Assembly (NCBI GenBank): GCA_016785955.1
Contig: JAEUWH010000123.1
Location: 62,001-126,000 of the forward strand
DNA: 64,000 nucleotides
Origin: Pseudobdellovibrionaceae bacterium
GTDB taxonomy: Bacteria; Bdellovibrionota; Bdellovibrionia; Bdellovibrionales; Bdellovibrionaceae
Direction: 5' to 3'
Shown here: one piece after another, positions 145 to 15,985 of the stretch
Position numbering within the stretch: the stretch's first letter is position 1
Layout of the letters: each line of letters starts with the position of its first letter
The notes under the pieces: generated by a model
Told to the model about the DNA's origin: nothing
What the model saw: only the letters and a program-made list of their open reading frames with translations
The model's database searches: none
Made by a program: the position numbers and the translations under genes

Positions 145-1245
145 ATGGAAATTGAGAGACATTGGAAACGGATTCCCAAGACCTCTGAAAGCCGTACTGA
201 AAATCATCAGTCACAGCCATTGCAGACCTATAAAATTTTTAACAATACTCGCATTGTTACGGAAGCTTGGTATCCAATCCTGCCGAGTCGAAAATTAAAA
301 AAAATGAAATCGCATTCTTTCAAAATCGGCGCGCAAAGAATTGTATTGTTTCGTGGAGACGATCGAGTTGTTCGCGCACTGGATGCATTTTGTCCTCACA
401 TGGGTGCAGACCTTGGTCGGGGTGAAGTGACTGGAAATGAAATTCGCTGTTATTTTCATCGTTGGAAATACGATGCGCAGGGAAATTTATCAGAAATTCC
501 CTGTAAATCAAAACTGCCGTTCAATTTGAAGATTCAAAATTATGACACTCAAGAAGCATACGGATTTATATGGGTGTATGCGGGAAAGAAAGCACCGTAT
601 CCTGTGCCTAAACCTCCGGGGCTTGAGGGGCTTTCCGTTGAAGGTCGACTATTGATAAAAACAAAACTATTTGTGCATCACCATGTTTTGATGGCATCGG
701 CGATTGATATTCAACATTTTGCCAGCGTACACAATTTGCACGCAGATTTTTCCCATGAAATAGAAATTCCGGTCGAAGACAATTATACCTGGAAAGTGAT
801 GGGAAAGCTGAATGAAAACGGAGTTCGCAATAGGATTGTCAGCTGGTTTTTGGGTCAACAATTTGGTTATCGTGCGCTATTTTCTGGTGGTTCGATCGTT
901 TCCATTTCCTATGGCGAGAACCAAAGATTTCGTGGACGAGTGAATGGGATGAAACTGCCGACTCCTCATGTACTTTGGGGATGTGTTCCTCATAGTGATG
1001 GTGTCAGTGATGCGTATGTTTTTATTGTTCAGAAAAAAAACAATGGTATTTGGGGGGAAGTAAAATCAAAGGTTAACTTTGTTTTCAGTATCGTCCTTTT
1101 AGCCTGGTTAAAAGATGACGATGTTAAAGCATTCCCTCGGATGCGGTTTCAGGCTCAGAATTTGATAGATTTAGATGCCTCGGTGGCTAAATTGATTTCC
1201 TTGACTGAAAAATTGAAGGTGTCTTTGTGGTCGTTCAAAAATTAA
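145..1245 (+). CDS. Rieske non-haem iron oxygenase (paralogue 1)
   Basis: Oxygenase component of a Rieske-type monooxygenase or desaturase, expected to be cytoplasmic and to take electrons from a ferredoxin. The Rieske 2Fe-2S site is complete: Cys83-Pro-His85 and Cys102-x2-His105. The mononuclear iron site follows as Asp188-x2-His191-x4-His196. At 366 aa it is the usual length for a single-chain alpha subunit. The N-terminus (MEI-x-R) matches the paralogue at 14830-15891, which supports this start, although the ribosome binding site (GAAGAG, close to ATG) is weak. Its 3' end overlaps the next gene by 19 nt, so the two are probably translationally coupled. From memory the layout resembles PrnD-like arylamine oxygenases and cholesterol 7-desaturases; the substrate cannot be read from sequence. 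Confidence 0.9.
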   Translation: MEIERHWKRIPKTSESRTENHQSQPLQTYKIFNNTRIVTEAWYPILPSRKLKKMKSHSFKIGAQRIVLFRGDDRVVRALDAFCPHMGADLGRGEVTGNEIRCYFHRWKYDAQGNLSEIPCKSKLPFNLKIQNYDTQEAYGFIWVYAGKKAPYPVPKPPGLEGLSVEGRLLIKTKLFVHHHVLMASAIDIQHFASVHNLHADFSHEIEIPVEDNYTWKVMGKLNENGVRNRIVSWFLGQQFGYRALFSGGSIVSISYGENQRFRGRVNGMKLPTPHVLWGCVPHSDGVSDAYVFIVQKKNNGIWGEVKSKVNFVFSIVLLAWLKDDDVKAFPRMRFQAQNLIDLDASVAKLISLTEKLKVSLWSFKN

Positions 1246-2012
1246 AGTTGCACGAATGGTTCTTGGTCTATCAACTGGACCAAATTAAAAAGACGATGCA
1301 TCATATACCCATTTATTTGAAGTTAGATATTTCTGCTTATGTTAACGAATACAAGGGTTTGAATACAAAAATTCCAACAACTGCATTGCTTATCAAAATC
1401 ATCGGAACATGGGCAGCCGCCAACCCCACAGTAAACAAGATGTTGTTTCGAACATTTTTTGGACTTCGGTTTTTAAAAGGTGATGAGATTCGTATCAATT
1501 TTCCTTTGGGTATTCAGTGGCAAGGGCAAACGGCTGTTACGGCGATCGTGATTAGAAACCCTCAATTGAAAACGATCGAGCAAATTCATGACGAAATCAA
1601 AATAGCAAAATCCAAACCCTTGTCTGCGTACCCGATAACTTATTGGGCGTATTCGCATGTGAATCATTTTTTAAACCGTTTTTTGTTGGGGGCGATTCAT
1701 ACGGTGATTAGCAACTTTCCAAGTATTTATTGGAGAAAAGGTGGCGGCTGTATCAGTATCTCCTCGCTTTCGAATTTTTTCGTCAAAGATCATTTATTCT
1801 CTGCATGTTCGTTTGGACCTACGGGCTTCACTTTTTTTTATAAGGATATCGAAGTTGTTGATGGGAAAACTTACCTCAACCTTAGTATAGCTGCTGATCA
1901 TAATACTTTTGCCGGTTATGAAATTGTTGAGTTAGTCAATAGACTGCTTGTGTTGCCAAAGATAGCCAAGGCCAATCGGTCGCAAAACATAACACAGGAC
2001 TTACATGTATAA
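1227..2012 (+). CDS. CoA-dependent acyltransferase-like protein (E2/CAT fold)
   Basis: This 261-aa protein resembles the catalytic domain of 2-oxoacid dehydrogenase E2 acyltransferases and chloramphenicol acetyltransferase, without lipoyl or subunit-binding domains. A central segment reads like the E2 TALLIKI...ANP region, and near the C-terminus the active-site HxxxDG motif appears as DHNTFAG. The catalytic His is kept but the motif Asp is Ala. It may transfer an acyl group in the oxygenase locus or be non-catalytic. The GTG start is preceded by GAAGG at 7 nt spacing and lies inside the end of the Rieske gene. The family assignment is by fold-like motif only, so function is inferred. Confidence 0.65.
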   Translation: MVVQKLKLHEWFLVYQLDQIKKTMHHIPIYLKLDISAYVNEYKGLNTKIPTTALLIKIIGTWAAANPTVNKMLFRTFFGLRFLKGDEIRINFPLGIQWQGQTAVTAIVIRNPQLKTIEQIHDEIKIAKSKPLSAYPITYWAYSHVNHFLNRFLLGAIHTVISNFPSIYWRKGGGCISISSLSNFFVKDHLFSACSFGPTGFTFFYKDIEVVDGKTYLNLSIAADHNTFAGYEIVELVNRLLVLPKIAKANRSQNITQDLHV

Positions 2013-2081
2013 ATTGTTTAACCCTATTTTGAGAATCGGTATACTCACAATATCAAAAAAATAACTATACAAGGAGCGTAT

Positions 2082-3587
2082 ATGTTTTTGAAATGCATCT
2101 GCACAAGTCTGGTGCTTGTCGGTCTAGTACACGCGGCAAAACCAATGGAGCCTGTGGATTTTCCGACCCCTAAAGTTAACGAGTATGCCGACATAGCCAA
2201 GAAGGCAAAAAAATCAAAACGGAAAGTTGCGGCGACAGGAACATCGGAAGCTTTTCAAAACGACATCATGAAACCTTGGTTAACGGTGACAACTCCGGAA
2301 GGTGTATCTGACTTATTGAAATCGTCGTATGACAATTATGACAAATACAGCAGCCCAGATGTAAAATATTTTCTAGCCCAGCTTCATACAATGATACCAC
2401 TTAAAGGAATCGTGTGGCGCTTGCGACCCCTATTCGATACAGGTTTCAAAGGAAATCGGGCGACACACGTAACGGCCGTTCAATTGGTTCGCAATATTAC
2501 GACGACCCTAAGTGCAGCTCTTCCAACAAAACAAACGGATGCTCTTATAAAATATTTCACGATGCCTGGTCCGGAAATGACTGAACAGAGTCAGTTTCAT
2601 GAAATGACTGATTTCCAAAATTTTTTGGTAAGTGATTTTGCTAAAGTGTTTATCACAAGCATTGGTCGAATTAAGGCTCTTCATGAAGCCAATCCAGAAG
2701 CCGTTTGGGTTTGGGATAACAAAATGTTTTTCGGGACTGCGGCATTCAAAAGTGGATTCAATCAGTTTGTTGGTCATGGCCCGGCCGAGCGCCACTTATC
2801 AATGGGTTTGATGTGGGAAGCTTTACATGATTCGTATGTTTTTAGTGCTTATAACCAGGATGAACTCATCAATATTGCGGGTAAATTGGGACGAGCTATG
2901 GGCATGGATGTATTTAAGGAATCAGACTCGGATGCGCTTGGTTTAACCGATAAAGAGCGTGTCACTATCATGAGACAAATCGCCAAAAGTAAAGGTTTCT
3001 TGGATTTAAAAGGTGAGCCGGGGACGAAGTCCGCAAAAAATTTCGCATCGGGGGAAGGCCGTGCGGTTATGTTGAAAGCTCACAATGCCAAGATTTGGGC
3101 TGCCATTGAGTTTGAGAAAGCTTATCGAAATGTGGTGGGGCAGCCCGCGAATATTGCTATGGCCATAAATCCAGCGCTATACCAAGCAAATGTTCAGAAT
3201 CGCTTGGAGGGTGGTGTCGAACGTATGCTGAGTGCTGTTCGAAGCCAGACCGAATTTCATGACACGGTTTCATCTGAAACCGTGGTTTTGAATGTTCCTC
3301 AATACTATAAAAATCCTCCGAAAAATCTTTCGGTTTTGATGGCAACTGATTTCGAAGGCGGAGAATTAGATGCTTCTATTCAGGGTGCGGATAAAAAGGA
3401 TTTAAAATATCGCAATTATTTGTTTAATCGATCAAATAAGTGGGACAACGCCGAATGGTCTAAGTATGTAATGATGAATGAAACGCAAAAAGCGGATAAG
3501 TCATACATGCTTAAAGCTAAACGTATTCTGCATTATTCTTTGGGTGCTAGCCCGGCATTTGGGGTTGTCGATATTTTCGTTAGATAA
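2082..3587 (+). CDS. secreted protein of unknown function
   Basis: I do not recognise this 501-aa protein. It begins with a short signal peptide (hydrophobic stretch to about residue 18, cleavage near HAA-KP) and then a Lys-rich segment. The rest is soluble-looking with no obvious membrane segment or metal motif. The start has a strong ribosome binding site (AAGGAG, 6 nt before ATG). It follows the acyltransferase-like gene by 69 nt, so it may belong to the same unit or have its own weak promoter (TATACT near 2040). Its last 55 nt overlap the convergent RND exporter gene, so the two 3' ends share sequence. A role in binding or handling a periplasmic substrate of the locus is a guess. Confidence 0.75.
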   Translation: MFLKCICTSLVLVGLVHAAKPMEPVDFPTPKVNEYADIAKKAKKSKRKVAATGTSEAFQNDIMKPWLTVTTPEGVSDLLKSSYDNYDKYSSPDVKYFLAQLHTMIPLKGIVWRLRPLFDTGFKGNRATHVTAVQLVRNITTTLSAALPTKQTDALIKYFTMPGPEMTEQSQFHEMTDFQNFLVSDFAKVFITSIGRIKALHEANPEAVWVWDNKMFFGTAAFKSGFNQFVGHGPAERHLSMGLMWEALHDSYVFSAYNQDELINIAGKLGRAMGMDVFKESDSDALGLTDKERVTIMRQIAKSKGFLDLKGEPGTKSAKNFASGEGRAVMLKAHNAKIWAAIEFEKAYRNVVGQPANIAMAINPALYQANVQNRLEGGVERMLSAVRSQTEFHDTVSSETVVLNVPQYYKNPPKNLSVLMATDFEGGELDASIQGADKKDLKYRNYLFNRSNKWDNAEWSKYVMMNETQKADKSYMLKAKRILHYSLGASPAFGVVDIFVR

Positions 3588-5704
3588 GATTTCAGTTGCA
3601 GGAGACCTTTTAGTATCCAAAGGTCTCCAAATAAGCTCAGCAAAAAACCGGCACTGAACAGTAAACCTAAAATTTTCATCGGAATCAGCGTCTGAAATAG
3701 GAAAAGTAAGCTGCTAATCACCGTGATCAGTCCAATAATGATGCTTGCCGGTCCATTTTCTTCGACGCCAGAATCGATATTGCCATCTTCTTTTGTAAAT
3801 AGATATTGAATGGCATTGTCCCCAGTAATACCGACCAATATGGCTAGGAACATGCTGTTGAATGGACTAATTGGCAGATCTAGTAACACCATCGCAGAAA
3901 TCAAAAAAAGTGGGCCTGCCAACAGCGACATTGGAACCAGAACATAGAGTTTGTTACCCAGGCTTTTCTGTAAATAATAAATGATGAACATTACGATTGC
4001 TAAACTGATCAAAAAACTTTCGCTGAGGGTATGACTTAAAACCTCTGAAGCTTCACGGTACACGTCGCTTTGGCCGACTATGGCGGCACCTGTTGGACAA
4101 TAGATTTGGGAAATTTTATGAAGTTCTGAAATATCATTTGGTGAATTGGATTTCAGATAAACGATGGCGCGTGTGTAGTCGCCAGAATTAAACAATTTAA
4201 GTGGGCCATATTTGGTAAGTTCGAACTGAACGCTGTCACGTCGAATTGGAGAAAGATTTTTTAATAGATAGTCCTCGATTTTAAAGGGATTATCTATTGA
4301 GGCTACAAGTTTAGATTTTTCTATTTCGCCCAAGCATTGTTCGATGCTTGCGCGAGTCAGGGTGTTGGGGAATTCTATAAACACCGAATTTTGCCAGCCA
4401 AGTGCTTGGTTAAAGTGATTAAGACTTTGCTTGATAGGGTGTTGACTAGGAAAATTTTTAGCCGGGTTTTCTTCGAATCTGAGTTTGAAAAACAGAAAAG
4501 GACCGGCGAATACGAAAAAGCAAAATCCAATAGTTAAAGCCTTTGGGGGTGTCCAGTGGTTAACTCTTTTTACATTTTGAATCAGTCTGTGATCAGTTTT
4601 CTTTGTTACAAACTCGGTTTGAAATTTACATTTTTCTAAAAATGCGGGAAAAACCATGAACGTGAAATACCATTCCAGCATTGCACCTAGCGCGGCGGCA
4701 AAGCCAAACCTTTGAATTGTAGTCAAGTCGGATACACATAACGAAATAAAACCAATTGCAGTTGTGAATGAGGTAAAAAAACCGGGTCGGCAATATCCCA
4801 TGACACTTTCTTTTAAAGTTTTACCTCGGGACATTCCCCAGCAAATAAAAATGTAATCGGCAGTTCCGGCAATTGCTGTGATCAAAAACAGGCTATTGGA
4901 TAAAATATCAACAGGAATTCCAAGGGTACCCATGATACCGGCAAGCGAAATCAGTGTCGCGATCACGGTTAACATATAATAAAACCCGGTTCGCCATGTG
5001 CCAAAAAAAATTTTGAAAAACACTAAGAAAAAAATAACCAATACTATATGCTGAAAAGAATCTTTTTTTAAAATTTCATTAACATAGTATTGAAAAACGG
5101 CAGGCCCGATTCCACTCGTTTTATACTCGGGGCTTTTGATGTCATAAAGCCAATGTTTTACAGTTTCGAGTGAAAAATCTGGTTCCAGTCTAACCTGTAC
5201 AAGTAGTTGCGAGTTATTGGGAGACAATCTGCAAAATGGGTGTTTTGTGTCTAGGCTTTTTTTTAAATCGGCAAGACCGACTCCGGCAGTGGCGCATGGA
5301 TCGGGAAGAGTCAGCGGGTACCAGTATTCCGTAGGATGTGATTCAATTCCACGTAGTTTAAAAATATGAAATGTGGACTTAGTCCCTTCCGCTGTGGTTT
5401 CGATGTCATTCACTTTAGAAATCAGTGAACAGACTTGCTCCGAGCTAGGTTCTTTTGGCCATTCTATAAGTAATGAAATTGTTGAGAAATCTTCAAACTC
5501 TTCCATCATGTCCCATAGACGAGTCAGCGAAGGGAAATCAGTATTGTGTGAATTATAAAGATCAAGCTCCACTTTCAGAGATCGGGCCCCAAATATCGAA
5601 AAAATCAGGACTAAAGCACTGATGACAAGTATCGTAGTTGGACGAGTGAATGCAACACGGGTCACTGTTTCTATAATTTGAAATGGCTTTTTTTTCTGCG
5701 TCAT
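3533..5704 (-). CDS. RND superfamily exporter, MMPL/HpnN-like
   Basis: A 723-aa inner-membrane transporter of the MMPL branch of the RND superfamily. It has one N-terminal membrane helix (about residues 18-38), a large extracytoplasmic loop, a block of five helices, a second helix and loop (with an ENP-x-K-NFP motif typical of the family), and a final five-helix block. Relatives such as HpnN, MmpL and BstA move lipids or polycyclic isoprenoids. Its position between oxygenase operons suggests it exports or relocates the lipophilic product. No Shine-Dalgarno sequence precedes the ATG; TAATCT ends 6 nt upstream, so the mRNA may be leaderless. The 3' end overlaps the convergent secreted-protein gene by 55 nt. 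Confidence 0.85.
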   Translation of the reverse strand: MTQKKKPFQIIETVTRVAFTRPTTILVISALVLIFSIFGARSLKVELDLYNSHNTDFPSLTRLWDMMEEFEDFSTISLLIEWPKEPSSEQVCSLISKVNDIETTAEGTKSTFHIFKLRGIESHPTEYWYPLTLPDPCATAGVGLADLKKSLDTKHPFCRLSPNNSQLLVQVRLEPDFSLETVKHWLYDIKSPEYKTSGIGPAVFQYYVNEILKKDSFQHIVLVIFFLVFFKIFFGTWRTGFYYMLTVIATLISLAGIMGTLGIPVDILSNSLFLITAIAGTADYIFICWGMSRGKTLKESVMGYCRPGFFTSFTTAIGFISLCVSDLTTIQRFGFAAALGAMLEWYFTFMVFPAFLEKCKFQTEFVTKKTDHRLIQNVKRVNHWTPPKALTIGFCFFVFAGPFLFFKLRFEENPAKNFPSQHPIKQSLNHFNQALGWQNSVFIEFPNTLTRASIEQCLGEIEKSKLVASIDNPFKIEDYLLKNLSPIRRDSVQFELTKYGPLKLFNSGDYTRAIVYLKSNSPNDISELHKISQIYCPTGAAIVGQSDVYREASEVLSHTLSESFLISLAIVMFIIYYLQKSLGNKLYVLVPMSLLAGPLFLISAMVLLDLPISPFNSMFLAILVGITGDNAIQYLFTKEDGNIDSGVEENGPASIIIGLITVISSLLFLFQTLIPMKILGLLFSAGFLLSLFGDLWILKGLLQLKSYLTKISTTPNAGLAPKE

Positions 5705-5710
5705 AGTTTT

Positions 5711-5741
5711 AGATTATTGGACTGGGTTTTAGTTTGCGCAA
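5711..5741 (-). promoter_or_regulatory. promoter of the RND exporter gene
   Basis: Read leftwards: -35 TTGCGC (5741-5736), 19-nt spacer, -10 TAATCT (5716-5711), then 6 nt to the ATG at 5704. The predicted start of transcription coincides with the start codon. It interlocks with the oppositely directed promoter at 5717-5747. Confidence 0.5.
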
Positions 5742-5747
5742 TATAAT
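5717..5747 (+). promoter_or_regulatory. promoter of the main oxygenase operon
   Basis: -35 TTGGAC (5717-5722), 19-nt spacer, perfect -10 TATAAT (5742-5747), then 6 nt to the ATG at 5754. No Shine-Dalgarno sequence lies in that gap, so the eight-gene operon is predicted to start with a leaderless mRNA. The long spacer is a weakness of the call. Confidence 0.6.
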
Positions 5748-5753
5748 TTTAGG

Positions 5754-6800
5754 ATGTCATTCGCAGATAAAATAAAAAAATTTGGTCAAGCGGATTTTGT
5801 ACCAGACGGTTGGTATTGGCTGCTGAGTTCCCAAGATGTAAAAGTACGTCAGGCCAAACCGGCCACATTTTTAAACTATGATTTTGTGGTTTACCGTGGT
5901 GAAGATGGAAAAGCTCACATTTTGGATGCATATTGCCCACATATGGGCGCTCACCTCTGTGATGGCAAAGTAGAAGGTAATTCTATTCGTTGTCCTTTTC
6001 ATTTTTGGAAATTTGATGTGAATGGTGTCTGCGAAAATATTCCCGCTCTGAAGGAAGTGGCGAAGGTTGAAAAGCTGGGTTCATATAAATGCACAGAAAA
6101 ATATGGACTGATTTGGTTGTGGTATGGCCAGGAAGAAAGTGATGTGGCGGTTCCTGTAGTACCCGAGCTTGAAGGTTTGCGCCTACAAAGTTCACTGGGC
6201 AAACCGTTCACGAAAGAATGTCATCCCAATGTAATGATGATTAATGCGATAGATGCCCATCATTTTCGATCTGTGCATAATTTAATTGTAGATCTGGAGA
6301 TGGAGCCTAAAGTATTAAATGCCAGTTGTATTCAATTTTCGAATACGACTCCGATGCCGCAAAAAAATTGGTTTTTGAGGTGGGCAACACGGTTCTATTC
6401 CAAAGCGTTGACTTATGAATTGACATACTGGTGGGGGCATAACGGTTCGGTTATGGTTGGTCCTGATTTTCTGCATTTTTATATAATCTTTGCGCTGCGC
6501 CCGAATAGTCACGGGAAAGCCGAGGGACAAACGATACTTGTCACCAAACATCGAAAAGGTGTTCGGGGGTTCATTTTCAATAAAATCGTTTTATATTTAA
6601 CGAAACTAGTAGGAAACTATTTCGCTAAAGGAGATACGCAGATTTTTTCACGTATCCAATACAGATTTAAAACACCTATCAAGGCGGATCGAGCGATTTT
6701 ACATTTTATCGATCATTACGAAAAACTGATGCAAATAGGATTTGCAAAAAAGGAAAAGGAATTCAAATCATGTTACCCAAGCGAACAGATGACGCTTTAG
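5754..6800 (+). CDS. Rieske non-haem iron oxygenase (paralogue 2)
   Basis: First gene of the eight-gene operon. The 348-aa protein has a complete Rieske site (Cys61-x-His63, Cys80-x2-His83) and a mononuclear iron triad (Asp167, His170, His175). It is closely similar in layout to the proteins at 145-1245 and 14830-15891; all three share a CPHMG-type Rieske loop and an xWY segment near the N-terminus. A perfect TATAAT box lies only 6 nt upstream of the ATG with no ribosome binding site, which suggests leaderless translation. The 3' end overlaps the next gene by 31 nt. Electrons could come from the ferredoxin encoded at 8367. Substrate unknown. Confidence 0.9.
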   Translation: MSFADKIKKFGQADFVPDGWYWLLSSQDVKVRQAKPATFLNYDFVVYRGEDGKAHILDAYCPHMGAHLCDGKVEGNSIRCPFHFWKFDVNGVCENIPALKEVAKVEKLGSYKCTEKYGLIWLWYGQEESDVAVPVVPELEGLRLQSSLGKPFTKECHPNVMMINAIDAHHFRSVHNLIVDLEMEPKVLNASCIQFSNTTPMPQKNWFLRWATRFYSKALTYELTYWWGHNGSVMVGPDFLHFYIIFALRPNSHGKAEGQTILVTKHRKGVRGFIFNKIVLYLTKLVGNYFAKGDTQIFSRIQYRFKTPIKADRAILHFIDHYEKLMQIGFAKKEKEFKSCYPSEQMTL

Positions 6801-7189
6801 AAAACTGGGATTTATTTGTTCTACGACATCAGCAAAAGGCAAATATTCGAATCCATTTCATTTCATTTTTGATGTTTTGGCTAGGGCCGATCTTGGCGTT
6901 GGCGATTCATCCGATATACTGGGTTCTTTTCTTTTTATCGGGCATGGTGGGTGTCGCCGGACACTATTTTTGTAAAGATGGAACGGTGGACAGAAAGGAA
7001 GCAACTTCTAGCGTTGAAGTGGTGGTGTTTTCTTCACTCATGGCGATTCTTTTTGTGAGTCAATCCTACGACCAAGAAATTGTACGGGTTAAAAGAAAGT
7101 ATCAGAGTTATTTGGTCGGCAACATCCCTAGTTATGCGGATCAAGATATGTTTAAGAAACTTGGACCAGGAGTTGGGCTATGGAAATAA
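6770..7189 (+). CDS. small membrane protein, Mpo1/DUF962-like
   Basis: 139 aa with two central hydrophobic segments (about residues 30-48 and 50-66). The pattern His-x4-Asn-x3-His before the first helix and Gly-His after the second match, by eye, the conserved positions of DUF962 proteins, whose yeast member Mpo1 is an Fe(II)-dependent dioxygenase of 2-hydroxy fatty acids. If correct, this is another iron oxygenase acting on an acyl chain in the membrane. It is embedded in the operon: the start lies within the preceding Rieske gene (AAGGA 9 nt upstream) and the end overlaps the next gene by 10 nt. The family call rests on a short motif and needs a profile search. Confidence 0.55.
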   Translation: MLPKRTDDALENWDLFVLRHQQKANIRIHFISFLMFWLGPILALAIHPIYWVLFFLSGMVGVAGHYFCKDGTVDRKEATSSVEVVVFSSLMAILFVSQSYDQEIVRVKRKYQSYLVGNIPSYADQDMFKKLGPGVGLWK

Positions 7190-8370
7190 TTTTTGCTAAT
7201 GAACCCAAAGAAAAGTCGTTAAAAGACGATATTAAAACATTAAAGCGTATCGAACTAGCCCTCAAGAAAAGTAAGCAACTAGATCAAACCGCGAACATGG
7301 AACTGGCATCGCAAAATTTTAAATATACGGATTGCCATCTGGCCAATTGGAATCCCGAGCGATTTTCCTTGTTGTATGGAACATGGCTTTGGAATCAATC
7401 GTCTGAATACCAAAAGACGATTTTGAACCAACTTTATTGGGTCGCCTATTATTCCCAAATTATTTCGGCGGAAATTGCGACAATATTTTTTAATCAAACC
7501 TGTGCAGCTTCTTTGTATGGGGTAGAGGACTTTCGTATTGTATGCGATACCTTGGATTTGGAATCAGCCCAGGAACGCGCGCACATAAATGCTTTCAAAA
7601 CTGTATCTGAAGAACTAGAGCAAACATTGTTTGGGGAGAGAATCTTCACTTATCCCATGCGCACTCCATTTGTGAAGACGATGATGTATTCTGATTTAAG
7701 TAAATTTCAACAATGGCTTCGGACCCAGCAGTTGCGGGCCTATACGGTATTGTCGTCGAATTCCGCTTTTGTCGGCTGCCAATATTTTACGGTTCGTGGT
7801 GTACGTACACTGAATGGTAAAATTGTCCAGCATCAGCTGTCTAAATTCTATTCTGGCATGAAGGACCCGGAACAAGCTCCCATTCCGGCAAAGATTTCCT
7901 ATTATCATTTTGTGGATGAAAGTTTTCATTTTAATACATCAACGGTGATTTCACATGATGTGATTAACAGTTTGAAACCGCCGACAAAATTTGAGTCGTA
8001 CATTGCTAACAAATCACTTTGGGGCTGTCAGAAAGATCACTACAATTTTTCGACGGCCATCAATGGGATTTTTTGGTATGATCCGGCACTATACAAGCCG
8101 ATGTATAAGATCTTGCGAAGTCCTGTTTTTGGTATGTCCCATGAAGAAGCCCTTGTCGCGATAGAGAAAAGCTTTTGTGAAGAATCAGAAGGTGCCACGG
8201 CTTCGGCCAAGACGCACTCGGAAGCGGTTGATTCCTATAAAGCCTATTTGGCGGATTTCAAGTATGTAGATAAAAGAAATCGGGATATGTTGTTAATGTC
8301 AGGCAATAATTTGCAAAAGCATTTACAAACCAACAAAAAATTCTTTGAAACATTCAGAAAATCAATATGA
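7180..8370 (+). CDS. di-iron oxygenase, AurF/CmlI-like
   Basis: 396-aa protein whose glutamate/histidine pattern fits a helical di-iron site: Glu98 in a SAEIATI helix, Glu132-x2-His135 (ERAH), and His243 with Glu247-x2-His250 (YYHFVDESFH). This spacing resembles the AurF family of arylamine N-oxygenases (PABA N-oxygenase, CmlI), which oxidise amino to nitro groups; some relatives act on other substrates. The start follows AGGAG at 7 nt and overlaps the previous gene by 10 nt; the stop overlaps the ferredoxin start in an ATGA arrangement. It is therefore certainly co-translated with the oxygenase genes. The presence of both Rieske and AurF-like enzymes makes an N-oxygenated product plausible but unproven. 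Confidence 0.65.
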   Translation: MEIIFANEPKEKSLKDDIKTLKRIELALKKSKQLDQTANMELASQNFKYTDCHLANWNPERFSLLYGTWLWNQSSEYQKTILNQLYWVAYYSQIISAEIATIFFNQTCAASLYGVEDFRIVCDTLDLESAQERAHINAFKTVSEELEQTLFGERIFTYPMRTPFVKTMMYSDLSKFQQWLRTQQLRAYTVLSSNSAFVGCQYFTVRGVRTLNGKIVQHQLSKFYSGMKDPEQAPIPAKISYYHFVDESFHFNTSTVISHDVINSLKPPTKFESYIANKSLWGCQKDHYNFSTAINGIFWYDPALYKPMYKILRSPVFGMSHEEALVAIEKSFCEESEGATASAKTHSEAVDSYKAYLADFKYVDKRNRDMLLMSGNNLQKHLQTNKKFFETFRKSI

Positions 8371-8663
8371 GCAAGTATAAGATATCGTTTGCGGATGATG
8401 AATTTGATCCTGTCGAGTTGCCAGAGCAAGCTAATCTGTCCGAGTACTTAACGGTACAAAATTCGCCCATTCTGTTTGGCTGTCGCATCGGAATTTGTGG
8501 GACTTGTCTGGTTGAAATTATCACCGAGGATGGGTCTTTGAACGAGCGCACCGAAAATGAAAGGGAATTTCTGGAAGCGGTATACCCAGAGGAAAAAAAG
8601 TGTCGGCTGGCTTGTCAGGTCAATTTGAATACGAACATTAAAGTAAAAAAAATCGAGCTCTAG
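8367..8663 (+). CDS. plant-type 2Fe-2S ferredoxin
   Basis: A 98-aa ferredoxin with the plant-type cluster motif Cys-x4-Cys-x2-Cys (CRIGICGTC, about residues 39-47) and the fourth Cys in CRLACQV about 30 residues later. It is the only small electron carrier in the locus and the likely electron donor for the Rieske and possibly the di-iron oxygenases. No flavin-dependent ferredoxin reductase is encoded in the window, so a general cellular reductase must feed it. ATGA overlap with the upstream AurF-like gene and a 1-nt gap to the downstream Rieske gene show tight coupling. Confidence 0.9.
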   Translation: MSKYKISFADDEFDPVELPEQANLSEYLTVQNSPILFGCRIGICGTCLVEIITEDGSLNERTENEREFLEAVYPEEKKCRLACQVNLNTNIKVKKIEL

Positions 8664-8664
8664 T

Positions 8665-9666
8665 GTGAATGTTAATCAATTTTGGTATATTGCTTGTGAA
8701 AGTCGTCAGCTAAAACCACTTAAACCTTTTGCGACCACTATATTGGATGAATGGATCGTTTTGTTCCGTGATGATTCGGGAAAGGTGGCCGCTTTGCAAG
8801 ATCGTTGCTTGCACCGGGCTGCCAGATTATCAACCGGGAATGTCAAGGATGGGAAAATTATTTGTCCTTACCATGGTTGGACCTATAGTTCGACCGGTGA
8901 CGTGGTACAAATTCCCTCGGAAACGGAAGTTGGCAGAAAACGTTGTTCGGTCAGATACAATGTCATTGAACAGGATGACTACATTTATGTTCAGTTAAAA
9001 GAAGGTGACGTGGTTCCGTTCAAAATGCCACACTATAAAGATCGTGGGTACACGACAATTCGGTTACAAAATACATTTGAAAATACGGTCACCAATTGTG
9101 TTGAAAATTTTTTGGATATTCCTCATACGACGTATGTTCATCCGACGATATTCAGGAACGCCAAACGGCAAAAAATGGGGGCTACGGTCGAACGTAAAAA
9201 GGGTCACGTAAAGGTTACCTATCTAGATGAAAAATCTGATTTTGGAATTTTTTCTTGGTTCCTTAATCCCAAAAACGAAAATGTGGGACATACCGATGAA
9301 TATTTCATGCCGAATATTTCGACGGTGAATTATTGGTTTGGAAAAAAGCATTTCATCATCACATCGCAATCAATTCCGGTAGATACAAAGACGACGTTGG
9401 TGTATACGGATTTGACTTACAACTATGGAATTTGGAACTGGATTTCACGACCGATTATTCGGTGGCAAGGGCAAACCATCATTGATCAAGATATCGTTAT
9501 TCTTAGGAATCAGTCCGAGACAATAAGAAAGTATGGTCAACAGTTTCAGAACTCTCCTTGTGATATAATACATACGTTTATCGAAAGCATTCGCAGCGAA
9601 ATAGAAAATGGTCGAGACCCTTTGGCACTGACGGAAAAAATGGAAAGGATCGAGTTTTGGGTATAG
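8665..9666 (+). CDS. Rieske non-haem iron oxygenase (divergent type, paralogue 3)
   Basis: 333-aa Rieske oxygenase of a different subgroup from its three neighbours. Rieske ligands are Cys48-x-His50 and Cys67-x2-His70 (CPYHGW), and the mononuclear iron motif is the classical NxVENFLDIPH-x4-H with His154 and His159. This form resembles VanA/choline-monooxygenase/pheophorbide-oxygenase type enzymes. It starts with GTG one base after the ferredoxin stop, so translation probably depends on coupling. Its 3' end overlaps the following hydroxylase gene by 10 nt. It probably performs a separate oxidation step on the same intermediate; substrate unknown. Confidence 0.9.
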   Translation: MNVNQFWYIACESRQLKPLKPFATTILDEWIVLFRDDSGKVAALQDRCLHRAARLSTGNVKDGKIICPYHGWTYSSTGDVVQIPSETEVGRKRCSVRYNVIEQDDYIYVQLKEGDVVPFKMPHYKDRGYTTIRLQNTFENTVTNCVENFLDIPHTTYVHPTIFRNAKRQKMGATVERKKGHVKVTYLDEKSDFGIFSWFLNPKNENVGHTDEYFMPNISTVNYWFGKKHFIITSQSIPVDTKTTLVYTDLTYNYGIWNWISRPIIRWQGQTIIDQDIVILRNQSETIRKYGQQFQNSPCDIIHTFIESIRSEIENGRDPLALTEKMERIEFWV

Positions 9667-10337
9667 TTCAAGTTTGGCAAAAAAAAACTCGAGATGAGAA
9701 GCTACTTGATATCACGGGTTTGACTATGCAGTCTTTTTTTGTGCCGGCACTTGCGACCTTTGTTGGCATCAAGGTGTTGCCACTATTTTTTACCTTAGAC
9801 AAAGACGTATGGTCATTGCCATTATGGGTGCAATTCTTATTGCCTTTTACCTTGATTGACTACCTTTACTATTGGAATCATCGCTTGATGCATCGATCCG
9901 AGTTCTGGTGGCTTCACCGCGTGCATCATACCTCTCGTCGAATGGATGTATTTGTAACGTCACGTAATTCTTTGTGGACGGTATTGTTCTTCATATACAT
10001 TTGGGCCCACGCATTTTTAATATTTTCGCAACAAGATCCATCTGGATATTTATACGGAATGTACGTATTAGCAGCGTTGGATTTATGGCGGCATTCAGGA
10101 TTTAAAACTCCGAATTTTTTGCGTAAAATGGGCTTAATATTTATTTTACCTGAAGACCACAGTTGGCATCATTCGACCGAAATGGTGGGAGTTAATTTTG
10201 GTGCGAATTTGAATTTATGGGATCGTATACACGGAACATTTTACCGCAATTGGGAGTTTCCCAAGGCGTTGGGTGAAAAAAATCCTGATCAGTCATTGTG
10301 GATAAATTTATTTTTTCCATGGAAAGCTAAATTATGA
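9657..10337 (+). CDS. fatty acid hydroxylase / sterol desaturase superfamily membrane enzyme
   Basis: 226-aa integral membrane protein with the three histidine boxes of the superfamily: HRLMH (75-79), HRVHH (87-91) and HSWHH (168-172), plus His146. These bind a di-iron centre at the cytoplasmic face and hydroxylate or desaturate lipid-like substrates. Hydrophobic segments flank the boxes (about 28-46, 55-74, 105-125). The TTG start is preceded by AAAGGA at 7 nt; the start is inside the end of the Rieske gene and the stop overlaps the next start (ATGA). It points to a hydrophobic, membrane-held intermediate in this pathway. Confidence 0.88.
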   Translation: MGIVQVWQKKTRDEKLLDITGLTMQSFFVPALATFVGIKVLPLFFTLDKDVWSLPLWVQFLLPFTLIDYLYYWNHRLMHRSEFWWLHRVHHTSRRMDVFVTSRNSLWTVLFFIYIWAHAFLIFSQQDPSGYLYGMYVLAALDLWRHSGFKTPNFLRKMGLIFILPEDHSWHHSTEMVGVNFGANLNLWDRIHGTFYRNWEFPKALGEKNPDQSLWINLFFPWKAKL

Positions 10338-10942
10338 CTATTGGTGGAATCCTCGCTAGTCTATTTCCTTTTTTCTATCTTGTAGTGAATATATATTTTG
10401 CAGTTCTTTTTTTGAAAAATCCCAGTGGAGTGACAGGATTGACATTGGTTTGCGGAATTTATTTGCTTCCACTGGCACTGTTTCGTCTGCATTCCTTGTT
10501 TTTCAGAGTCGAAGAAGGGGACTATGATCTGTCAAAGAAGGCTTACAATCCTTGGTGGACTGCCCACATGCTGCAATATCCATTTATTGCATTGCCATTT
10601 TTAGAATCTGTTTTGCATTTTGTGCCTGGTTTGTATTCTTGGTGGTTACGTGGTTGGGGAGCAAAGATTGGAAAAAAAATTTTTTGGACGCCACGAACAG
10701 AAATCTTGGATAGAAATTTGGTTGAAATAGGCAGTGGGACAATCATTGGCCATTTGACGGTGATGGTTTCTCATCTGGTCGAAACCAGGTCGGGTGTGCC
10801 GATGTTAGTAATTAAGAAAGTTCGCATTGGTGAGAAATGTCTTGTCGGAGCAGACGCCCAGCTAGGTCCTGGAACCGAAATTGCCAGTCGAACGAATCTG
10901 AAGCCTAAAGTTCGTTTATATTGGAAAGGTGAATGGAAATGA
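10334..10942 (+). CDS. membrane-anchored hexapeptide-repeat protein, acyltransferase-like
   Basis: 202 aa. Two hydrophobic segments occupy roughly residues 5-27 and 32-52, followed by a loop rich in aromatic residues. The C-terminal third carries imperfect hexapeptide repeats (IGSGTIIG, IGEKCLVG, LGPGTEI) that form left-handed beta-helices in acetyl- and acyltransferases. The usual catalytic His is not clearly placed; a His in IIGHL is a candidate. It may acylate the oxidised intermediate, but could be a scaffold. ATGA overlaps join it to both neighbours. Similar C-terminal repeats also occur in large adenylation-linked proteins, so the exact reaction is open. Confidence 0.6.
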   Translation: MTIGGILASLFPFFYLVVNIYFAVLFLKNPSGVTGLTLVCGIYLLPLALFRLHSLFFRVEEGDYDLSKKAYNPWWTAHMLQYPFIALPFLESVLHFVPGLYSWWLRGWGAKIGKKIFWTPRTEILDRNLVEIGSGTIIGHLTVMVSHLVETRSGVPMLVIKKVRIGEKCLVGADAQLGPGTEIASRTNLKPKVRLYWKGEWK

Positions 10943-12345
10943 GTGTGCGACTGTTTCTTGTGCGAATGGCTGTTCGTATACTGACGCGCCAGAAAAGACA
11001 GCGTTTTGAAAGAGCACTGCGGGAACCACAAAAATGTCAGCAAAAAGTTCTATCCGATATTCTGACGCTAACAGAACTGTCCAGATTGCCAGAGCAGCCA
11101 ACAGAATACGTCAGTTATCCAGATAATAAATCTTGGACCACCGAATCAGTAAAGTTCTATGAAACCACATCGGGCAATTCAGGAAAAAAGAAAACGATTC
11201 CGTATACTAGATCTTTACTTCAAAGTTTTCAGAATCTTTTTTTATTGTGGATCGATGATTTGATGACTGTTCAAAGGTTGAAGACGGGAAAACTATTTAT
11301 GTCGATTTCTCCGCGGTTAGAGTCATTGGGGATGAGTTCTGATTTAGATTATTTAAATCCTTTTTTTCGCTGGTGTATGAGTTCGTTCATTGTGGCTCGA
11401 CCATCAGATTTTTTGGCTCATGATGGGCATGAATTTTTTAAAAAAATAGCAATTCGGTTGTTAAATAGCCCTTATCTGGAAAGTATTTCTATCTGGAGTC
11501 CTACATACTGGATTTCGTTGACCCAATTTATGCAGCAAAACTTGCAGGTTCTTTCACTGCATATCGAGGCATCAACAATAAAGAAAATTCAAAATCAAGA
11601 TTGGCCAGCTATTTGGCCAAATTTAAAAATTATTTCCTGTTGGACAGACGGTAGTTCTTTGATGTCGTTGCGTAAACTCGAAGAGATGTTTCCGCAAGTC
11701 AGCATTCAAGGCAAAGGTCTATTGGCCACGGAAGCTCCGATGACGATACCTTGGACGTCCGCCGCAGGTTGTGTTCCTTTATGGAACGAAGTTTACCTGG
11801 AGTTTATCGATAAGGAGGGGTGCCTTAAGCCACTTCATACTATTCAAGCCCAGCAAGAAGTTGAATTGGTGATTTCTACTAAGGGAGGACTACTTCGTTA
11901 CAGGATAGGTGACATTGTCCGTTGTACACATTTCTATCGACAAAGTCCGGTGCTTAAGTTTGTTCGTCGGGTTGGTGAGGTGTCGGATTTGGTTGGTGAG
12001 AAGCTAGATGCGGCTATTTTGATGGACGTATTCGCTGATCTGCCGCGTGGCAAGTGGCTTTTGGTTGCTGATGGTGATCACTATGTTTTTGTCAGTGATT
12101 TCAAGGCCGATTTTCAAGATATTGATCGTCGATTGTGTCAGGCGTTTCACTATGGTCTAGCTCGTGAATTGAAGCAGCTAAAAGCTGTGCGAGTGAAGTA
12201 CTTTCCAGATTTGACATCGAAAATGATAAGTTACTACACTGCTCGTAAAATAAAAGTGGGAGATGTTAAAGAGCGTCTTCTATGGGCTGATCCTCGGATC
12301 TTGCTATTTCTAGAGAGTTCAAAATTATCTGACTCATATCTGTAA
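10939..12345 (+). CDS. GH3-family acyl-adenylate / amide-forming enzyme
   Basis: Last gene of the operon, about 468 aa. The N-terminal half has the adenylation-type motif TTSGNSGKKK (about residues 70-80), and a later RYRIGDIVR motif fits the GH3 (auxin-responsive) family, whose members activate a carboxylic acid with ATP and join it to an amine, usually an amino acid. In this locus it may condense an acyl acid with an amine. I prefer the ATG at 10939 (ATGA overlap with the previous stop, 9 nt after GGAAAGG) over the ATG at 10933, which is too close to the ribosome binding site. Its last 80 nt overlap, in the opposite strand, the convergent di-iron protein gene. Confidence 0.78.
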   Translation: MSVRLFLVRMAVRILTRQKRQRFERALREPQKCQQKVLSDILTLTELSRLPEQPTEYVSYPDNKSWTTESVKFYETTSGNSGKKKTIPYTRSLLQSFQNLFLLWIDDLMTVQRLKTGKLFMSISPRLESLGMSSDLDYLNPFFRWCMSSFIVARPSDFLAHDGHEFFKKIAIRLLNSPYLESISIWSPTYWISLTQFMQQNLQVLSLHIEASTIKKIQNQDWPAIWPNLKIISCWTDGSSLMSLRKLEEMFPQVSIQGKGLLATEAPMTIPWTSAAGCVPLWNEVYLEFIDKEGCLKPLHTIQAQQEVELVISTKGGLLRYRIGDIVRCTHFYRQSPVLKFVRRVGEVSDLVGEKLDAAILMDVFADLPRGKWLLVADGDHYVFVSDFKADFQDIDRRLCQAFHYGLARELKQLKAVRVKYFPDLTSKMISYYTARKIKVGDVKERLLWADPRILLFLESSKLSDSYL

Positions 12346-13198
12346 TAGAAAAAGGTGTCCATTGAAAGTGTTGCATTTGGTCGTCGGATAAAATTTTTCC
12401 TAAGTTTTGTTGAACGATTTTAAGCTTATTGGTTGTGGTTTCCATGGCTTTTATTGAACTTAGTAAAAATCCTACTTCGGTATAAGAACTCAACTTGTTA
12501 AGATGAGACAGCATATATGCCACTTGATAAGGACCGACGCGAATAGCATCGATGACCGATTGGATGTTTCCGATTAGCTCGGAACTGATGGCCAGTCCTA
12601 GATATTGGCTCAGAATAACTCCGCCTCCATGATGGCGAGTCTCATCAAAAACGATTTTCGAGAAAATGTTTTTTAATTCTATGTTGTCGGTTCCAGCCGC
12701 CAAGCTTTGATAGTGGCTAATACCCCAACCTTCGAGCAGGACTTGAATTAAAATTATACTGTCACGACGACTTTCTTTTTCAACCACGCGGGCAATCATG
12801 GTTGAAAAGCTGGGGGCATCTTTATCTATCGAAAATTCAAAATATGGCTGCAAAAGATACAGGTGTCCTAACTCTTCATAAGCCACTGTAGTATAATATT
12901 GTCGCTCTTCTTGAGATTCCGCTAACAAAGCCATCTTGTTTGCATACGCGATTCCGGCATGTTCAATAGATATGGCTTCTTTTAAAATACATTTAGAACT
13001 GAGTCTTAAGAATTGATCTCTTTTATCTTTGGACAGACGTGTCCAATAGGGACTGTCGTGTACACGATAGAAATCGGGACGCCATAGCGGCAGATCTTTT
13101 TTAACAATCCCAGTTGTTTCTAGAGATTGGTTAATCAAGCGTTGCAGGCGGCCTTTAAGTTCGGTCGGGGCCTGTGGAAGCAGAACAGAAAAATCCAT
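12266..13198 (-). CDS. ferritin-like di-iron protein
   Basis: 310-aa helical protein with an apparent di-iron carboxylate site: Glu79/His80 region, Glu109-x2-His112 (EELGH), Glu156 (LLEGWG) and Glu186-x2-His189 (DETRHH). The pattern ExxH twice with additional Glu residues fits ferritin-like oxygenases or desaturases. I cannot name a close relative. It is the last gene of a four-gene minus-strand operon that starts at the Rieske gene at 15891, one base downstream of the SDR gene. Its 3' end runs 80 nt into the convergent GH3 gene. Likely another oxidation step of the pathway. Confidence 0.7.
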   Translation of the reverse strand: MDFSVLLPQAPTELKGRLQRLINQSLETTGIVKKDLPLWRPDFYRVHDSPYWTRLSKDKRDQFLRLSSKCILKEAISIEHAGIAYANKMALLAESQEERQYYTTVAYEELGHLYLLQPYFEFSIDKDAPSFSTMIARVVEKESRRDSIILIQVLLEGWGISHYQSLAAGTDNIELKNIFSKIVFDETRHHGGGVILSQYLGLAISSELIGNIQSVIDAIRVGPYQVAYMLSHLNKLSSYTEVGFLLSSIKAMETTTNKLKIVQQNLGKILSDDQMQHFQWTPFSITDMSQIILNSLEIARSEDQPIEDAL

Positions 13199-13199
13199 T

Positions 13200-14045
13200 T
13201 TAGTGTTCCTTGTTAAACTGCGAGTACAAAGCCTTTCCTGAAATTCGATGAAATAATGATCGAGGCATTATCTTCTTCATAAATCGAACTAAGAAGGCAT
13301 CCTTGCCAAAACTATAGTTAATTTTAGGGTTATTTGTTTGAATGATTTTGATGACTCCCTGGACAACCTCTTCAGGACGTTGAGGATTGGGTCTGGTCGC
13401 CAGATTCTGTCGGAGGCGAGTGTAGTTTTTAACTTGCCGGCTATAAACTGAATTTGTCGATAGTTCCATTCCCCATTCAGCAGCATTGTTAAAGTTAGTG
13501 CGATAGCCACCCGGTTCGATCAAACTGACTTTGACGGAAAAAGGCTTGAGTTCGTAAGACAATGATTCTGAAAAACCTTCGATGGCAAATTTAGTGGCAC
13601 AGTAGGCACTGGATAAAGGAAAACCCATTAAACCAAAGGCGCTGGAAAAATTGATAATATGGCCTTTGGCGTGACGAAGCGCCGGAAGCAGTTTTTGCGT
13701 TAGTAGAAAAACTCCAAAGACATTCACTTCGAATTGCTTGCGTAATTTTTCTTCCGAGCATTCCTCGACTGGGCCGAAGATAGCGAAACCGGCATTGTTA
13801 ATTAAGACGTCAAGGGGACGTTGCCGAAAGTACTCTTCAATTGCTTTCATATCTGCTGCCGAGGTAACGTCTAAATCCAATTCCACTAACTGAGTTTTGT
13901 ATTTTTCTCGCTCATGGGCAAAAACATCTTGGCGACCGATAAGGCTGCGACCCGTGGCGACCACGTTATATCCTTTTTCTAAAAGAGCTGTTACAAGTCC
14001 TTTACCAAAACCTGAGGTTGCGCCTGTAACTAAAACTGTTTTCAT
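13200..14045 (-). CDS. short-chain dehydrogenase/reductase (SDR)
   Basis: 281-aa classical SDR. It has the nucleotide-binding GATSGFGKG motif (residues 8-16), the NNAG motif, and the active-site Ser with YxxxK (SSAFG...YCATK). Basic residues after the second strand (TGRS) suggest NADPH preference. It probably reduces or oxidises an alcohol/ketone formed by the oxygenases. The start overlaps the stop of the upstream GNAT-like gene (ATGA), and the stop is one base before the di-iron gene, so it sits inside a coupled operon. Confidence 0.88.
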   Translation of the reverse strand: MKTVLVTGATSGFGKGLVTALLEKGYNVVATGRSLIGRQDVFAHEREKYKTQLVELDLDVTSAADMKAIEEYFRQRPLDVLINNAGFAIFGPVEECSEEKLRKQFEVNVFGVFLLTQKLLPALRHAKGHIINFSSAFGLMGFPLSSAYCATKFAIEGFSESLSYELKPFSVKVSLIEPGGYRTNFNNAAEWGMELSTNSVYSRQVKNYTRLRQNLATRPNPQRPEEVVQGVIKIIQTNNPKINYSFGKDAFLVRFMKKIMPRSLFHRISGKALYSQFNKEH

Positions 14046-14848
14046 TGAGCCTTCTTGCTAAAAAATGTTTTTTTTATGAAGTATTGAAGTGGCATCAGCA
14101 ATGTCATTTCAGCAATACAGGCCAATTCATGTCCCCGATCCCAGTGAGGATTCATTTCTGCAAAATACTTTATTTTTTTATTCTTAAATAATTCGGTTGA
14201 AATTTCAGCAACTTTTTCTTTTAGACAACATGACTTGGAATCAAATTCGATCACGCCTAGGGATGGTTTATAGAAATCGGAAAAACGGTGGCTATAAAAT
14301 CGATCCATCAGCACTTTATAGTGAGTCGGTGTTTCCATTTCGACACGTGGGAAGTGGGTTTTAAAATTGTTAGCCATTAGTAGATAGGTTTTATAGCCCT
14401 TAGAAATTAGAAACCAATAGACCGGGCGAAATGGATTTTTGACTTTTTCCATCCATAAGTATTTAAGGAACGCGATTCCTAGGGCTTTGTTTCCCCAATA
14501 CTCTTTTTCAAGTACAGTATCACCACTGTAAATACCTAAGGCATTGAAACCCTGAAGAGCAAGGTCAACTTGAAGTAATGTTGAAAATCCTTGAATAGTT
14601 TTATGTTGGGCATCACGCAGTAAAATGACATGATTTTTCTCGAACAGGTCGATCGTAAATTGCTCTCGAGTGTGATTAACATAATACTTTGAGAAAATCG
14701 AATACATGCGCTCGATTTCCAAAGATGAAACATCTGATATAGGTTTTATTTCCGCAAAAACCGCAGGGCGTGGTGGTGCATATGTAATTTCAATTGGTGA
14801 TATTAGTACTTCTGGATTTGCTTCAATCATCATGACGGTTTCCCCCAC
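14042..14848 (-). CDS. GNAT-like protein of unknown substrate
   Basis: 268-aa protein I do not recognise with certainty. Its middle part (an ILLRD...IQGFSTLLQV strand pair, then a GNKALGIAFLKYLW segment) looks like the acyl-CoA binding core of GNAT N-acyltransferases, but the motif is weak. Two Cys-Cys and several Lys-rich stretches follow. The ATG is inside the 3' end of the Rieske gene (19-nt overlap) and the stop overlaps the SDR start. Operon position suggests an acyl or aminoacyl transfer step in the same pathway. The paralogous OlsB-like protein at 61669 is not obviously similar. Confidence 0.5.
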   Translation of the reverse strand: MGETVMMIEANPEVLISPIEITYAPPRPAVFAEIKPISDVSSLEIERMYSIFSKYYVNHTREQFTIDLFEKNHVILLRDAQHKTIQGFSTLLQVDLALQGFNALGIYSGDTVLEKEYWGNKALGIAFLKYLWMEKVKNPFRPVYWFLISKGYKTYLLMANNFKTHFPRVEMETPTHYKVLMDRFYSHRFSDFYKPSLGVIEFDSKSCCLKEKVAEISTELFKNKKIKYFAEMNPHWDRGHELACIAEMTLLMPLQYFIKKTFFSKKAQ

Positions 14849-15891
14849 AGACTTATTGGAATTTTATTTACATACTGAATATATTGTCCCACTGGTCGAT
14901 CCATGGGTAAAAGCTTGTTTGGATTAAACCGCATGTTCTCATAGACTTCCCCATCTTCCCCTTGCAAGGCCCGAAACCCCATTTGCGTAATCCAGATAAG
15001 TATTCGCGATGTCAATATACCAAAAACTCCGGTGCGTTTAGGAGTCAGAAATATTGGCTGCACTTGAGAGTGACCTCCAGCGAGTGGGCGATAGGCAAAA
15101 ATCATATACATACTGGGGATCTTTTTTTTTCCGCCAAACCAAAAACTATTCTTTACCAGGGTTAGAAATCCGTTGGAGGCATGATCATACAGCATAGAAT
15201 ATGAATAAAGTGGGCCGATAAAAAATTGGGTTATTCGAGAGGCCCAGGTTTTATTACCAATAGCGCCGGCCAAAGAAATTTGCATCTGACGCGCGGTTGA
15301 TTTTATGTCTACCGACATTTCGATGTTGATTTGATGAACCGTTTTAAGATGTTGAGGATCGATACCGTTGATCATTGTGACATGGTGGTGGCAACGTCGC
15401 TGATAAGTTTTTCCAAACGTCACGTATAGTGGGAGGCCTTCGAGTTCGGGATAATGCGCCAGGGGATGTGGTGCTTGGGATTTAGGAAATACCCAAATGC
15501 TTTCAAATTGTTCCATGACGGCATACGACTTTGTCTTAACGGTTCTGCAAAAGGTTGGGTCGGCAGGGATATCTTGGCAATGGCCTTCAGAATCAAATTT
15601 CCAATGATGAAAAAAACATTGGATTGTTTCCTTTTTAACAGTTCCCTTACCTAAATGAGTGCCCATGTGAGGGCAGTAGGCATCTACGATACCCAGTTTT
15701 CCTGTTTCGGTTCGCCATACGACAAGATCTTGATATCCAATGGAAAAAGAATGAATTTTTTTTGGTTTCAAAGAACGAGCCGGCATGACAAAGTACCAAC
15801 CTTCGGCAACGACGGCAGCATTGTTAAAGACGGGCATTTTTAAAGTAGGTTGAGAATTTTGATTTTTAATAAATTCTCGTTGGATTTCCAT
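14830..15891 (-). CDS. Rieske non-haem iron oxygenase (paralogue 4)
   Basis: 353 aa, first gene of the minus-strand operon. Rieske ligands are Cys73-x-His75 and Cys92-x2-His95 (FFHHWKFD); the mononuclear site is Asp178, His181, His186. It is most like paralogue 1: both begin MEI-x-R, have an FNN segment, a WY pair near residue 33 and a KIHSFSIG/MKSHSFKIG match. The duplication is therefore probably local. No ribosome binding site precedes the ATG; a TAAAAT box ends 6 nt upstream, so the message is probably leaderless. Product layout again recalls PrnD-type oxygenases. Substrate unknown. Confidence 0.9.
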   Translation of the reverse strand: MEIQREFIKNQNSQPTLKMPVFNNAAVVAEGWYFVMPARSLKPKKIHSFSIGYQDLVVWRTETGKLGIVDAYCPHMGTHLGKGTVKKETIQCFFHHWKFDSEGHCQDIPADPTFCRTVKTKSYAVMEQFESIWVFPKSQAPHPLAHYPELEGLPLYVTFGKTYQRRCHHHVTMINGIDPQHLKTVHQINIEMSVDIKSTARQMQISLAGAIGNKTWASRITQFFIGPLYSYSMLYDHASNGFLTLVKNSFWFGGKKKIPSMYMIFAYRPLAGGHSQVQPIFLTPKRTGVFGILTSRILIWITQMGFRALQGEDGEVYENMRFNPNKLLPMDRPVGQYIQYVNKIPISLWGKPS

Positions 15892-15897
15892 TGCACT

Positions 15898-15927
15898 ATT
15901 TTAAACAAGAGCAAGGGATGAAACCAA
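15898..15927 (-). promoter_or_regulatory. promoter of the minus-strand oxygenase operon
   Basis: Read leftwards: TTGGTT (15927-15922), 18-nt spacer, TAAAAT (15903-15898), 6 nt, ATG at 15891. The spacing predicts transcription beginning at the start codon. Confidence 0.5.
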
Positions 15928-15985
15928 ATAGGGAAACGATTTAAGCAGTGTATCAACTAAAGAACTAGACCAGGGAAAACGATTT

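Follow-up and report, generated by a model that had tools for sequence, protein, structure and literature searches.

The 49-bp gap between the start of an RND-like transporter gene (CAT, 5702–5704) and the ATG (5754) of a divergent Rieske oxygenase gene, R2, carries two promoter sequences, one for each direction, that are superimposed on the same short stretch of DNA (Table 1). It lies in a 64,000-nt window, by which we mean the whole stretch of DNA analysed, and this window is a piece of a 156-kb contig in a 4.3-Mb genome. We consider it fairly probable that these sequences are overlapping sigma70-type promoters for leaderless or nearly leaderless mRNAs, that they admit one polymerase at a time, that the transporter and oxygenase genes are co-expressed, and that the overlap arose by shortening of the spacer.

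Table 1. Coordinates of the genes, promoter elements and conserved blocks at the transporter/oxygenase locus.
Feature	Position	Strand	Remarks
P3, convergent to transporter	2082..3587	+	directly upstream of R2, same strand, in Bacteriovoracaceae-type relatives L028, L031, L033
RND transporter, HAE3-like, 723 aa	3533..5704	-	TIGR00921 E=5.6e-21, below curated cut-off; 65% identical orthologue in G001
Intergenic spacer with both candidate promoters	5705..5753	.	81.6% identity to sister species vs 64-73% in flanking coding starts
Conserved block 1, TAGATTATTGGACTGG	5710..5725	.	16/16 identical in Bdellovibrio sp. 28-41-41
Candidate minus -10, AATAAT	5713..5718	-	5/6; 17-nt spacer; ends 8 nt before ATG 5704; conserved in L027
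Plus -35, TGGACT, corrected register	5718..5723	+	4/6; 18-nt spacer; TGGACA-18-TATACT in G059
Spacer centre, unconserved	5726..5732	.	3/7 identical
Conserved block 2, TTTGCGCAATATAATTTT	5733..5750	.	18/18 identical
Candidate minus -35, TTGCGC	5736..5741	-	3/6; conserved in L027
Plus -10, TATAAT	5742..5747	+	ends 6 nt before ATG 5754; start predicted at or next to 5754
Rieske oxygenase R2, 348 aa, first gene of plus operon	5754..6800	+	PF00355 2.5e-22
Remaining plus operon, tightly packed	6770..12345	+	P6, AurF-like P7, ferredoxin, Rieske R3, fatty-acid-hydroxylase family, acyltransferase, GH3

The promoter for the oxygenase operon, TGGACT-18-TATAAT-6-ATG, agrees with consensus at 10/12 positions and ties for the best among the sites listed between 3000 and 9000. 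A first-pass annotation of this DNA had placed its -10 box 6 nt before the ATG, as the bases confirm, but had set the -35 element one base off, choosing TTGGAC (3/6 at 19 nt) over TGGACT (4/6 at 18 nt); the latter register is also the one kept in the relative G059. The candidate transporter promoter, TTGCGC-17-AATAAT-8-ATG, scores 8/12 with a spacer of optimal length. Here the -35 element of the first-pass annotation stands, and its -10 box, TAATCT at 5716–5711, which matches at 3/6 positions (T1, A2 and T6), gives way to AATAAT. The two spacers, both put at 19 nt originally, thus become 18 and 17 nt, and a gap of 6 nt between -10 box and ATG holds for the plus gene but becomes 8 nt for the minus gene with AATAAT. 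Once the registers are corrected, the interlock that had been described is real and can be read directly from the sequence: block 1 combines the plus -35 with the minus -10, block 2 combines the minus -35 with the plus -10, and the outcome is a sigma70-type pair on opposite strands with overlapping predicted footprints, both members of which are conserved. Arrangements of this kind are already known.

As a guide to chance expectation, we generated 20,000 simulated 49-bp spacers with the dinucleotide composition of this genome's own upstream regions, scored against thresholds that were set post hoc, so that the resulting percentages serve as guides. A plus promoter of at least 10/12 at this distance from the ATG occurred in 0.12% of simulated spacers, making the observed one unlikely to arise by chance on score. 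By contrast, 4.7% of simulated spacers contained a minus promoter of at least 8/12; the transporter promoter is therefore unconvincing by score, and the case for it would rest mainly on conservation. One promoter of at least 10 together with another of at least 8 was seen in 0.01%. When we examined further short spacers between divergent genes across 0.9 Mb of this genome, none had a similar start-proximal promoter pair at the score threshold used, and the interlock is therefore not a routine local arrangement.

Conservation was assessed against a sister species, Bdellovibrio sp. 28-41-41 (G001; NCGL01000074.1), of the order Bdellovibrionales. Both blocks appear to be under selection, because every base in them is kept, compared to fewer than half of those in the spacer centre and to 39–51% identity at third codon positions of R2, P7, R3 and the transporter gene. 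If each base were kept with a probability of 0.5, retention of 34/34 would have a probability of ~6e-11, a value calculated for block limits that were chosen after alignment. Conservation of the 37 bp in relatives, proposed earlier as a check, was thus borne out for both shared blocks in the sister species; in the collections searched the interlock is confined to these two species, and the conservation amounts to one pairwise comparison. Coding constraint on the spacer is ruled out by in-frame stops, which lie at 5730–5732 in the R2 frame of the window and as a TAA in the transporter frame of both species. The Rieske gene R4 (14830–15891, minus strand; upstream region 15892–15930) has a leaderless-type promoter, TTGGTT-18-TAAAAT-6-ATG, that is also conserved in the sister species. 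It served as a one-way control: both of its hexamers are conserved, unlike much of the sequence separating them, and conservation ends at the -35. At R2, conservation extends 8 nt upstream of the plus -35 and across the minus -10, which we regard as the best evidence for a real transporter promoter. The conservation of block 2 could instead serve the plus promoter alone, through contacts upstream of its -10, or a regulator bound at TTGCGCAA.

Because the -10 boxes end 6–8 nt before ATG codons, both predicted mRNAs are probably leaderless or nearly so, starting at or beside the first codon. Transcription from the plus promoter would begin at or next to the A of the R2 ATG, and transcription from the minus promoter would begin near 5706, giving the transporter mRNA a leader of 0–2 nt. 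Neither start is preceded by a Shine-Dalgarno site, and both mRNAs would be translated without one; elsewhere in the cluster, an AGGAG is conserved at P3. Across 0.9 Mb of genome sequence, TANNNT at a 6-nt gap precedes 32 of 488 genes compared to 12.6 expected (p=3e-6), and boxes matching at least 5/6 positions at gaps of 5–9 nt number 31 compared to 16.8 expected (p=0.001). Calling gene starts with a simple ORF rule, as we did, should smear the 6-nt peak, not produce it. Leaderless genes have been predicted in 8 of 33 delta-proteobacterial genomes, where they average 15.8% of genes (PMC3160421), and TA-led leaderless genes at such a distance also occur in Deinococcus-Thermus (PMC12340547). 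R2 resembles these genes in having TANNNT with its first T at -12, no Shine-Dalgarno site and an ATG start, and the same gap is found in G001 and G059. The transporter has its better box, AATAAT, at 8 nt, and TAATCT at 6 nt also fits TANNNT. The locus differs from typical TA-led leaderless genes in that the pattern is a minority one in this genome and in that two divergent genes share a common spacer.

The transporter/oxygenase pair is spread more widely than the interlock, as judged from gene order and spacer sequence: the P3/transporter/R2 arrangement occurs in two further lineages of the order, and we see the interlock in just the two species that represent this genus. The plus promoter is conserved in another family, represented by G059 (R2 61% identical), where TGGACA-18-TATACT-6-ATG precedes R2 in the same register as in the window and TAGACT-6-GTG precedes the transporter; the G059 spacer is 92 bp and its promoters are not interlocked. 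The spacer of L034/G105 is 227 bp, also without interlock, and R2 there has a Shine-Dalgarno-like GAGG. Because the pair is kept with both of these longer spacers, it does not require interlocking, and the overlap would most likely have arisen in this genus, when an older divergent arrangement of transporter and oxygenase lost spacer length. In L028, L031 and L033, no transporter lies between P3 and R2. In L029, L030 and L032, the R2 orthologues' own promoter has TAAAAT ending 9 nt before the ATG (position 5001), a good -35 (TTGTAA/TTGAGA), a 17-nt spacer and implied leaders of ~2 nt.

The P3 and transporter ORFs overlap by 55 bp, and a perfect hairpin with a 10-bp stem (GGAGACCTTT...AAAGGTCTCC, 3601–3628) lies within the 3′-terminal part of the transporter ORF, immediately beyond the stop codon of P3. 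It is conserved in L027, lacks a T-run, and has counterparts at the same convergent junction in relatives. Transcription running on from P3, antisense to the transporter and into R2, as in a non-contiguous operon, is disfavored by strong hairpins (one with a T-run) at the P3/RND junction of two relatives, G059 and L034, though less firmly for the window, where the hairpin has no T-run.

The genes on both sides belong to a multi-Rieske cluster (145–15891) with four Rieske proteins, AurF-like diiron proteins, a ferredoxin, a fatty-acid-hydroxylase family member, GH3 and SDR, many genes of which are common to Bacteriovoracaceae and many Nostocales cyanobacteria. The gene order of the plus operon is the same in relatives, and R2 orthologues are 81%, 61%, 55% and 48% identical. 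The transporter scores 74.3 bits against TIGR00921 (HAE3), short of the curated cut-off of 351.9, has no Pfam match, and gave an AlphaFold2 model from 3 sequences with a pLDDT of 41, too poor for use. By sequence it appears RND-like, with membership in the HAE3 subfamily unproven; calling it an exporter, as was done originally, is reasonable for an RND-like protein but likewise unproven, as it depends on the sub-cutoff HAE3 match only. Rfam and tRNA scans of the window returned no matches. P6 (6770–7189), a small membrane protein, shows weak similarity to Mpo1-like 2-hydroxy-palmitic acid dioxygenase (PF06127, E=0.019). Among NCBIfam models, R2 best matches SdmA, a sterol demethylase of bacteria, at a score far below cut-off (7.9e-22), and in Methylococcus the sdm/bst sterol genes also have an RND neighbor, the RND-like BstA (PMC10942540). 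We dropped a sterol chemistry for R2 because the genome has no match to squalene/oxidosqualene cyclase (PF13243).

A bound RNA polymerase usually covers about -55 to +20. Given this footprint and predicted starts ~50 bp apart, two polymerases could hardly bind together, and the spacer would hold a single polymerase at any time, as the first-pass annotation had proposed. Its further proposal, that the interlock is a selected switch in which binding in one direction shuts off the other so that export and synthesis are mutually exclusive or alternate, strikes us as improbable. In its favor, the promoters do overlap completely and the sister species keeps them; E. coli bidirectional promoters can be repressed in one direction when the other is activated (PMC12825309), and overlapping divergent core promoters have a precedent in the EcoRV restriction-modification system (PMC5333194). 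At five E. coli bidirectional promoters, however, basal transcription is too low for polymerases to compete, and competition appears only on strong activation (PMC12825309), which makes basal co-expression the better expectation here. Neither -35 is near consensus, the same gene pair exists without interlock, and a transporter and an oxygenase from one conserved cluster are more simply expected to be expressed together; mutually exclusive or alternating expression is therefore unsupported. At ordinary initiation rates, both genes would be expressed together, with one side repressed only under strong activation of the other. A more extreme version, in which the interlocked leaderless promoters form a selected competition element through which, with no regulator protein involved, expression of the transporter in single cells would be anticorrelated with that of the oxygenase, we judge to be a long shot.

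Two other readings retain the plus promoter and account differently for the minus side. The transporter might be transcribed from a shared, pseudo-symmetric -10 of the type described by Warman and colleagues, either TATATT (5745–5740) or TAAAAT (5751–5746), with a start near 5733 or 5739 and a leader of roughly 30 nt. Each hexamer matches at 5/6 positions and overlaps TATAAT, and the predicted starts, ~15–21 bp from the plus start, fall within the 7–25 bp class (PMC10268837); yet no -35 better than 3/6 accompanies them, the resulting leader has no Shine-Dalgarno site, and the conserved bases 5710–5717 are left unexplained, so we think this explanation unlikely. Quite unlikely, in our estimation, is that only the plus promoter is real and the rest of the conserved DNA is a regulator site (TTGCGCAA, with ATTG/CAAT inverted arms), the RND gene being expressed through an activator or from a promoter elsewhere. 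The low score of the minus promoter and the presence of TTGCGCAA, a perfect 8-bp palindrome, within the conserved block are in keeping with a regulator site. Against it, AATAAT is conserved and stands both at an ideal spacing (17 nt) and at a distance from the ATG that suits a leaderless mRNA, and we recognised no gene for a regulator in the cluster (145–15891). A search of the genome with TTTGCGCAATATAAT, rather than with the bare palindrome, returned just 3 further sites, each with one mismatch, which gives no hint of a regulon, and a TTTGCGCAATATAAT regulon was rejected.

Overlapping promoters for leaderless or near-leaderless mRNAs, the reading we prefer, have close parallels. Like EcoRV PCR/PM (PMC5333194), this short spacer carries a divergent pair of core promoters whose polymerase sites overlap, so that it would admit one polymerase at a time; EcoRV differs in having a dedicated C-protein regulator and experimentally mapped starts, whereas starts and leaderless mRNAs are predicted here. 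The bidirectional promoters of Warman and Grainger (PMC12825309, PMC10268837) similarly serve two mRNAs from short shared DNA with steric exclusion of polymerases, and one of them, PacrA/acrR of an RND efflux operon, resembles this locus in having an RND transporter gene on one side. In that class, a -10 is shared and starts lie 7–25 bp apart, whereas here each -10 lies across or against the -35 of the opposing promoter and the best-scoring pair predicts starts ~50 bp apart, with weaker shared -10 candidates on the minus strand. A map of another species, B. bacteriovorus, lists 140 attack-phase promoters and gives the FliA attack-phase consensus of Bdellovibrio as TTAAG-N16-CCGATA (PMC3627812); this motif is absent from both strands of the 49-bp spacer, and FliA control of the spacer was rejected.

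The spacer looks like a condensed form of an arrangement already known; as a kind of system it is not new. Its 49 bp offer a clean, natural test of whether promoters that are fully superimposed would compete at physiological rates. Leaderless initiation, which the first-pass annotation had missed, is a more useful point than the switch. The locus bears on the extent of leaderless initiation in Bdellovibrionota, and the -10 boxes found 6 nt before start codons in this genome bear on the annotation of start codons and promoters in the group.
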